Positions 52,241 through 54,391 of a stretch of 64,000 nucleotides of DNA are shown here, piece after piece (the first letter of the stretch is position 1; every line of letters begins with the position of its first letter). The translations under genes and the position numbers were made by a program. The stretch is from Thiotrichales bacterium. Lineage in GTDB: Bacteria; Pseudomonadota; Gammaproteobacteria; Beggiatoales; Beggiatoaceae. Where the stretch lies: contig JADGEH010000011.1 in the NCBI GenBank assembly GCA_016744475.1, positions 1-64,000 of the forward strand, given 5' to 3'. The notes beneath the pieces were generated by a model. It worked only from the letters and a program-made list of their open reading frames with translations, ran no database searches and was not told where the DNA came from.

Positions 52241-52478
52241 GTGTAAGAGTCTATATGAAGACGGGCATCACACCCACCGCTTCTTTTTGTAGATTGGGTT
52301 AGGCATGTAGGGTTTGCACCGCGTGCTTTTTGCGGCGCGAACGCGGAGATAAAGTGTAGCCAGGTGTTGTGTGGAAGCCCGTCGTGACGTGCCCGTGTGA
52401 CCTTGACGCACCGCAGGCGCGGCGCTCAGAGTTCCCATGCAGGGCGCATGGGAATTAGGACAAGAAATCCTAGCACGG
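52241..52478. other. Intergenic with decayed repeats
   Basis: It holds a partial GTAGATTGGGTTAGGC repeat (52290-52305) and no recognisable gene. Confidence 0.4.
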
Positions 52479-52593
52479 TAGGATGGGTAGAGGCGCGTTA
52501 TGATGTTTTATTTTGCTATGAACCTTATCGCGCCGAAACCCATCATTTATCCATCACCGAAATGATGGGTTTCACTTCGCTCTACCCATCCTA
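52479..52593. repeat. TAGGATGGGTAGAG hairpin repeat, intron-bearing
   Basis: Arms TAGGATGGGTAGAG and CTCTACCCATCCTA bound this unit, with inner AAACCCATCATTT / AAATGATGGGTTT inverted repeats. The group II intron begins directly after the right arm. Confidence 0.75.
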
Positions 52594-53305
52594 GTGTGTC
52601 CTGAAGGAAAGCGTAGCTTTCCATGCTGTATTAAAGATGAGAGAAGGTCTCTCGGTTTCGGCCACCCGATGCTGGAATCAAACCACCCCGTGCGGCTGTC
52701 GTCAAGAGCGATGGTTGTGAGCGACGTGGGAAAAGGCAGTGAGAAACTGCCAGGTGCGTATGACGGAGATGAACGCCAGTGAACCTTTGATGAGGTGTCG
52801 AAAGTAAACGGTGCTGTCAAAACCTGATTTTCTAGGGTACGTCAGGGATAAGTCACGATGTGAGCGGGTTACAGACGTGGCGGCAGTCGGCATAGAGAAG
52901 GCATGAACGTCATATAGGCTTTAATACGGAACAGGAGAACCTGTCGTCTTGATGTTAAGGGAGACACCGAAAGGGAAGAGTACCGATGCAGGACACAGGG
53001 ACGGATGCGCTCGTAGTAGTGTTGAAATGCTTGTAATGAGTATGGAGCGAAGGGGCACCATCATTCTATTCAGTTTATTTGGAACAACCAGACTTGACCA
53101 AGGTTTCAATATTGTGGCACTACTGGGAAACTCAGTAGCAAACAGAGAAAACAAACCTAAACCTAAAGTCAGTAATGGGAAGAATTTGAATAGATTGGAT
53201 AAGTCTGGAAAGTTTCCAGACTGAATGATAAGAGCCGAATGAAGCGAGAGTTTCACGTTCGGTTCTGTGAGAGCCTCAAGGGGAAGTTCCTTGGGGCTAC
53301 TCGAC
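52594..53305 (+). ncRNA. Group II intron without its intron-encoded protein
   Basis: The 5' end GTGTGTCC fits the GUGYG consensus. Domain I-III-like segments follow (GCGGCTGTCGTCAAGAGCGA, GGGAGACACCGAAAGGGAAG, GGAGCGAAGGGGC). Domain V is intact at 53232-53265: exactly 34 nt, GAGCCGAAUG to UUCGGUUC, with the AGC triad and a GCGAGAG loop. Domain VI is the hairpin 53266-53305 with a bulged A at 53299, 6 nt before a terminal CGAC. Domain IV is only about 170 nt and encodes no reverse transcriptase on either strand, so splicing or mobility would need a protein supplied in trans. It sits right after a palindromic repeat. Confidence 0.88.
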
Positions 53306-53383
53306 CCGCGCTTAATGGCAGTAATGCGCTGCATAGGAACGAGTTAAAAGCCACCAGCTTCCAGAGGCCAACAGCGCTTACAG

Positions 53384-54391
53384 CTACGCTAAACTCTCCC
53401 AATAATCTTCTGGCATTTCCACACACATCTTCAAAGCCCCCACACTGCCGCAATATTCTGCATCCTGCACGCACACCGCACTGCCGCCACCATAAGCTTG
53501 CAGACTTTTCTCAATCGCGGTATCAATGCCTTTTAAGCGCGAACCGCCTCCTGCCACGATCACGTTATTGCGCAGTTTTTCCTGAAAATCGGGATCAAAG
53601 CTGCCAACTAATTGCTGTACCGCTTTACTGATCGGGTCGGTTAATGTCAAGCACGATTCTTTGAGTACATCGGTAATATCATATTCGCCAGGAATGCCTT
53701 GCTCGGTGAGCGTGACCAGCACAGGCTCTGATACTTGATAGACAAAACCATGCTTTTCTTTAATGCGCTTAATGATTTGTGGGCTTAATTGCACTTTGGG
53801 GTATTTTTGTAAAATGGCTTCAGTTAAGGTGCTGTCTAAAAAATTTCCCGCATAGGTTAAAGTCATTTGATCATCGGCTTCAGGCATGGAGCCGTGCATA
53901 CGGCATAAATCGGCGGTGCCTGCGCCAATATCCACAATCAAGCATTCATCAAAGCGATCAATAGAATACGCCACGGCAAAAGCTTCGCTGACCACGAGAA
54001 TCTTATCCAGCAAGCCTTTGCTTAAATCAATCAAGGCTTTTTTGTTATTAATGCTGGCTTGAGCGGGCACCCCAATCGCGGCAAACACTTGATCTTCTGG
54101 TTTTTTATCGGGCAAAGCTTGAGCGATCACATCTTGTAAAATCAACTTAGTCGCTTCAATCGCTTGCACATCTTCGCGCATGACACCATCCGCTAAAGGC
54201 CACACCATATTCAAAGACAAACGGTTTTCTAAGGCCTCTTCACCAATTAAATGGTCTTTATTTAAACGTTTTTGGGAAATCACATCTTTTGGATAGCCCA
54301 CGCAAGTGATGGTGGTAAAGCGTTGCCCTGTGGAGGTGGTGATGGTGGTGCGACTGGTGCCAAGATCAATGCCTACATGATAAATTGACAT
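53384..54391 (-). CDS. MamK-family actin-like ATPase
   Basis: At 335 residues this is a bacterial actin. The phosphate-1 loop is VGIDLGTSRTTITTSTG, followed by VGYPKDVISQKRL...IGEEALENR...WPLADGVM, which closely follows MamK. IVDIGAGTADLC forms phosphate-2 and VIVAGGGSRLKGID the adenosine motif. The ending MPEDYWESL parallels the MamK C-terminus. MamK filaments align magnetosomes; homologues in non-magnetic bacteria position other structures. No other magnetosome genes are present. GGAG lies 7 bases before ATG 54391. Upstream on the same strand are a small membrane protein and a P-type ATPase, with a MITE between the first two. Confidence 0.88.
   Translation of the reverse strand: MSIYHVGIDLGTSRTTITTSTGQRFTTITCVGYPKDVISQKRLNKDHLIGEEALENRLSLNMVWPLADGVMREDVQAIEATKLILQDVIAQALPDKKPEDQVFAAIGVPAQASINNKKALIDLSKGLLDKILVVSEAFAVAYSIDRFDECLIVDIGAGTADLCRMHGSMPEADDQMTLTYAGNFLDSTLTEAILQKYPKVQLSPQIIKRIKEKHGFVYQVSEPVLVTLTEQGIPGEYDITDVLKESCLTLTDPISKAVQQLVGSFDPDFQEKLRNNVIVAGGGSRLKGIDTAIEKSLQAYGGGSAVCVQDAEYCGSVGALKMCVEMPEDYWESLA

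Follow-up and report, generated by a model that had tools for sequence, protein, structure and literature searches.

A MITE of a Thiotrichales bacterium carries a structurally intact ORF-less group II intron within its right terminal inverted repeat

According to the parts of the published accounts drawn on here, RmInt1 of Sinorhizobium meliloti resides in an IS and RmInt2 targets the inverted repeats of ISRm17 (PMC5894124); TeI3 of Thermosynechococcus elongatus has its ORF deleted from domain IV and shows protein remnants and good EBS/IBS pairing (PMC2882425); and for Ca. Thiomargarita nelsonii remnants and non-protein-encoding group II introns have been reported (PMC4853749). Here we describe an ORF-less group II intron in a stretch of 64,000 nucleotides, called the window. 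Its source belongs to the same broad group of sulfur bacteria as Ca. Thiomargarita nelsonii. Genomes, contigs and loci are cited by our own handles (G, C and L). The features of the locus are as follows.

52472-52593, forward strand: MITE, part before the intron; left TIR AGCACGGTAGGATGGGTAGAGG, right TIR beginning CTCTACCCATCCTA
52588-52593, forward strand: IBS1 ATCCTA, the last 6 nt of the 5' exon; 6/6 pairs with EBS1
52594-53305, forward strand: ORF-less group II intron, 712 nt (Rfam, empty site, consensus fold, covariation)
52594-52598, forward strand: intron 5' end GUGUG (GTGTG in DNA), common to most relatives
52639-52755, forward strand: 5' part of domain I; RF01999, 95.6 bits, cut-off 36, model positions 1-118 of 118
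52833-52838, forward strand: EBS1 UAGGGU, in the loop of the hairpin CCUGA...UCAGG
53060-53229, forward strand: domain IV, 170 nt, closed by AUCAUUC/GAAUGAU, no RT (fold)
53108-53181, forward strand: 74-nt segment with 80% identity to the first part of an intron-protein frame in G035:C246
53202-53222, forward strand: perfect short inverted repeat in the 3' arm of domain IV, arms 53202-53211 and 53213-53222
53232-53265, forward strand: domain V, 34 nt, AGC triad at 53233-53235 (RF00029)
53268-53303, forward strand: domain VI; single bulged A at 53299 in the fold of the whole element
53306-53312, forward strand: CCGCGCT, the last 7 nt of the MITE right TIR and start of the 3' exon (alignment with intron-free copies)

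The initial annotation, made from the sequence alone, had described a GUGYG 5' end, a 34-nt domain V with an AGC triad and a domain VI with a bulged A, and all three were recovered: the intron starts with GTGTG at 52594, domain V and its triad lie within an RF00029 match (domains V/VI) at 53230-53305 that scores 61.6 bits against a cut-off of 40, and the fold gives one bulged A, the 7th nucleotide counted from the intron 3' end. The intron closes with AC at 53304-53305, which fits the AY rule of group II introns. The covariance-model check proposed by the annotation was thus positive for both domain I (RF01999) and domains V/VI (RF00029), each above its Rfam gathering cut-off.

By its sequence, the ribozyme resembles introns of the RmInt1 type (IIB3/class D). 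Its DNA matches S. meliloti GR4 at 78% over 91 nt and SM11 at 67% over 37% of the query, and other plasmid records match the intron at 65-69% over most of domains I-III. Identity to the intron protein of GR4, whose copy we presume to be RmInt1, is 50-65% for full relatives and 36-46% for fragments of the window's family. The proteins of two full relatives match the NCBIfam model group_II_RT_mat and no endonuclease model; the window intron itself carries no protein.

The core was analysed in an alignment of domains I-III from 14 introns, comprising the window copy and 13 relatives, some genomic (C55 of the same genome, G015, G002, G010, G117 and G273) and others from plasmids (Methylomonas, Salmonella, Azotobacter, Escherichia, Caballeronia, Methylomagnum and Paraburkholderia). 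A consensus structure of 120 pairs was computed from the 13 relatives without the window, whose intron retains 117 of these pairs, with three broken; C55 retains 111. In the full alignment of 14 introns, 96.6% of cells pair across the 120 helix pairs, both partners change in 78 pairs, and covariation scores 0.590, compared with 0.217 in shuffles (0/500 as high) and 0.096-0.121 in slid versions. Since pairing and covariation lie far above shuffles and slides, chance is excluded as the origin of the fold; with the RF01999 match and the pairs retained, the failure of models on domains I-III, named at the outset as a possible refutation, did not appear. The first 91-97 nt of the intron are 99-100% identical to 5' ends in G022 (three contigs), so the window copy may simply be young, in which case the intactness of its core says little about selection.

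Disrupted exon-binding sites, the other refutation foreseen, did not appear either. In the window EBS1 (UAGGGU) and IBS1 (AUCCUA) pair at all six positions, with one U-G wobble. We compared own and mismatched combinations of EBS1 and IBS1 in 13 of the 14 aligned introns, leaving out G117, in which the 5' junction was not placed. An intron's own EBS1 and IBS1 form 5.23 of 6 pairs on average, mismatched combinations 3.10, and none of 20000 permutations reached the observed sum. Pairing is complete (6/6) in eight of the 13 introns and poor in two (Escherichia 1/6, Methylomagnum 4/6).

The repeat that holds the intron is short (~129 nt), multi-copy and bounded by TIRs, as a MITE is. With 52470-52593 as query, 44 matches were found in the same genome at E<=0.001. 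Ten returned loci gave an alignment of 13 rows and, as two loci overlap, ten distinct intron-free copies plus the window. All ten carry CCTAC at the junction and seven carry CCTACCGCGCT; the window instead reads CCTA, then the intron, then CCGCGCT, and ligation of its exons would give the junction CCATCCTA/CCGCGCT. Comparison of the intron-free copies with the window therefore gives the empty site to the base and places the intron inside the right TIR. The annotation had set the intron immediately after a palindromic repeat; the repeat is there, but the position needs correction, since the intron sits within the MITE, 7 nt from its end. We also considered whether the sister genome G001 has an orthologous empty site next to mamK and rejected this: gene order differs there, and the alignment covers only mamK plus a short stretch past it. 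The gene that adjoins the intron, at 53384-54391 on the reverse strand, encodes a MamK-like magnetosome actin (389.9 bits with the NCBIfam MamK model, slightly under the cut-off of 400; best PDB match, an actin-like ATPase), so that the neighbour is probably a magnetosome gene.

Relatives of the intron, in neighbouring genera, also tend to lie at the ends of palindromic repeats. Matches starting from intron base 1 occur at 25 places, of which we took 22 and left out three short ones (G033:C194, G033:C300 and G027:C119). A junction was counted as a repeat end if the reverse complement of the last 16 exon bases recurred (>=13/16) within 260 nt upstream. By this measure a palindrome arm stands at 11 of the 22 examined 5' junctions, the window included. 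Background rates, obtained from 60 loci (306 kb) of the same genomes without those fetched because of the MITE, were 20/1344 at CTA|C sites, 14/107 at [ACG]YCCTA|C sites and 39/6000 at random positions. Junctions with the same IBS1 type lie at repeat ends in 8 of 12 cases against 14/107 in the background (Fisher p 1.2e-4), and the introns of relatives thus stand at repeat ends far above background. Several repeat families are represented, and one G015 junction (L090) ends in CTCTACCCATCCTA, as the window does; not every event is independent, since five of the 11 repeat-end junctions come from G015. Among the remaining 11 junctions, L101 and L105 end, by eye, in an apparent right repeat arm without a left arm. 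A literature search for group II introns that target MITEs returned as nearest parallel RmInt2 at the repeats of ISRm17, as described in the part of PMC5894124 used here.

Domain IV had been given as about 170 nt with no protein, and this is accurate: it measures 170 nt and encodes no RT, although 74 nt of it resemble the start of an intron protein. With the core intact and EBS1-IBS1 pairing complete, the description of the element as a group II intron stripped of its reverse transcriptase is upheld. The sequence 53057-53229 folds at -50.5 kcal/mol (z -4.96, 0/200 shuffles as good). The frame matched by the 74-nt piece, in G035:C246, is interrupted, the match covers its first codons, and it seems to belong to a different intron lineage. 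Judged by eye, this piece may have been inserted into a conserved loop upstream of the ribosome-binding site, but the match overlaps the right border. A second copy of the window's domain IV was found neither in plasmids nor in 42 genomes of the family, where the search gave the copy itself, the 74-nt piece in G035 and two further matches, 22-36 nt long, with E close to 0.01. The intron gave no matches in phages.

A search of the same genome for a full-length relative, as the annotation had proposed, yielded only C55, the closest relative there, which has no 3' end and whose protein gene is broken and fused to other sequence. The remaining RT matches in this genome are C69 (broken), C237 (a fragment), C178 and C130 (both weak), C152 (of another intron class and truncated at a contig end) and C248 (retron-like); no intact cognate RT gene was found in the assembly, which may lack repeats, as multi-copy elements are often missing from such assemblies. 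When the protein of a Salmonella relative was compared with 16 chosen genomes, eight gave matches at 1e-40, the source genome through C55 only, and G001, G002, G005, G010, G024, G033, G240 and G257 gave none. Among the loci inspected, L046 holds a group II intron protein gene that is broken; its contig begins with a partial match to 5S rRNA that falls short of the cut-off. At L048 (2900-4500), a further open frame follows a retron-like reverse transcriptase, which scores 194 bits with the St85 model (below its cut-off of 235).

Intron DNA was matched in 15 of the 57 genomes searched, the source included. The 5' ends in G022 and the majority of the G015 copies break off where their contigs end, as is usual for multi-copy elements. 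G015:C151 has C-terminal codons of the protein before the intron 3' end (L094) and G015:C442 has an open protein piece of 302 aa at a contig edge; a protein-coding form of the intron therefore exists in the family. Deleted forms that keep both ends are common (G002:C156, G005:C106, G024:C205, the last without part of its 5' end, and C52 of the source genome). The C52 form (L040 2974-3173) is only 200 nt long and joins intron bases 1-132 to 646-713. Three further contigs of this genome (C184, C242 and C196; L036, L037 and L039) carry 5'-truncated intron ends whose domains V/VI score above the Rfam cut-off. In a genome of the same genus, an intron copy (L102 1100-1700) has an apparent palindromic repeat inside domain I.

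A separate ORF-less lineage emerged when the G010 copy was used as query, which matched 24 of 274 genomes of the class. In G097 (two copies), G240, G257 and a Methylomonas plasmid, the match extends across domain IV and no protein gene is present; these copies share with that of G010 a compact, strongly conserved domain IV that differs from the window intron's. The lineage, with copies at L097 1694-2332, L124 2953-3610, L204, L205, L206 and L207, spans at least four other genera. At 1e-40 no cognate protein was found in G010, G240 or G257, and G097 has one distant protein (34%). A Neochlamydia plasmid (L215 1121-3056) carries three ORF-less introns of ~645 nt each, head-to-tail and 96-97% identical; this array was shown by BLAST, and TRF, with its period limit of 500, gave nothing. 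On a Rhizobium leguminosarum plasmid, related ORF-less copies lie as two pieces within 554 nt.

We consider it rather probable that the window holds an intact ORF-less RmInt1-like intron that was reverse-spliced into the right TIR of a MITE and that needs the protein of a related intron in trans. Pairing of EBS1 (UAGGGU) with the MITE end (AUCCUA) would have guided the insertion and, as the intron no longer encodes a reverse transcriptase/maturase of its own, splicing or movement in the cell would depend on a related intron's protein. The presence of ORF-less introns of RmInt1-like type in several genera speaks for this account, in which the intron could have moved, or could still move, in its ORF-less form. 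Mobilisation in trans, suggested by the annotation, is possible, but the intron's form is single-copy in the 42 family genomes and C55 is broken. Since the deleted form was found once and the assembly yielded no intact gene for a matching protein, we regard its movement in trans as plausible rather than proven.

The same single copy, the lack of an intact protein gene and a genome full of decayed pieces (C55, C184, C242, C196 and the 200-nt C52) would also be expected if a full-length intron had homed into the MITE, lost its ORF by deletion in place and were now an immobile, decaying relic. We think this unlikely, if well worth keeping in mind, because the core (117/120 pairs) is better kept than that of the C55 relic (111/120) and domain IV, instead of looking like a ragged deletion, forms a compact, closed fold. 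It is improbable that the deletion arose during insertion itself, by template jumps of the reverse transcriptase, within one intron RNA or from one to another, with the foreign 74-nt piece as the product of a jump: C52 (1-132 + 646-713), G005:C106, G024:C205 and G002:C156 do miss different internal stretches while keeping both ends, and the piece does match another intron's protein start, but later recombination or deletion gives the same picture and the match rests on one other genome. That the element is an unrelated structured repeat and no intron can be dismissed, since nothing was found in its favour and the Rfam matches, covariation, bulged A, EBS1-IBS1 pairing and empty site contradict it.

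Returning to reverse splicing with a protein supplied in trans, we would tentatively suggest, as a possibility only, a doubly non-autonomous nest, in which an ORF-less intron dependent on another intron's RT has specialised on the ends of MITEs dependent on another element's transposase. The same guide sequence would give access to many repeat ends across several genera of a single family, and the spread of MITEs would thereby create homing sites. Base-exact boundaries, an intact core and a defined target make splicing and trans-mobility directly testable. That palindromic repeat ends are used repeatedly suggests a way in which such introns reach harmless, renewable sites, and the separate ORF-less lineage with its conserved compact domain IV suggests that reliance on a protein supplied in trans may be more common than has been supposed.

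The introns of Ca. Thiomargarita nelsonii differ from the one described here in being of IIB2 type with an HNH endonuclease, and the part of that account used here does not mention targeting of MITE ends (PMC4853749). With TeI3 the window intron shares the ORF deletion within domain IV, remnants of a protein gene and good EBS/IBS pairing; in the portion of the report considered, TeI3 has 17 copies with one common deletion and drivers in its genome, whereas the assembly studied here yielded one copy of the window's form and neither multiple copies of one deletion nor an intact related protein that could act as driver (PMC2882425). The kind of element is already known, from homing to IS repeats (RmInt2, PMC5894124) and from trans-mobilised ORF-less introns (T. 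elongatus, PMC2882425), as far as these partial sources go. To RmInt1 and RmInt2 of S. meliloti the window intron is related by its ribozyme, and RmInt2 is also found at repeat ends (PMC5894124, in part); unlike them, the window intron has no protein gene and its target is the end of a MITE, and its relatives use several repeat families in several genera.
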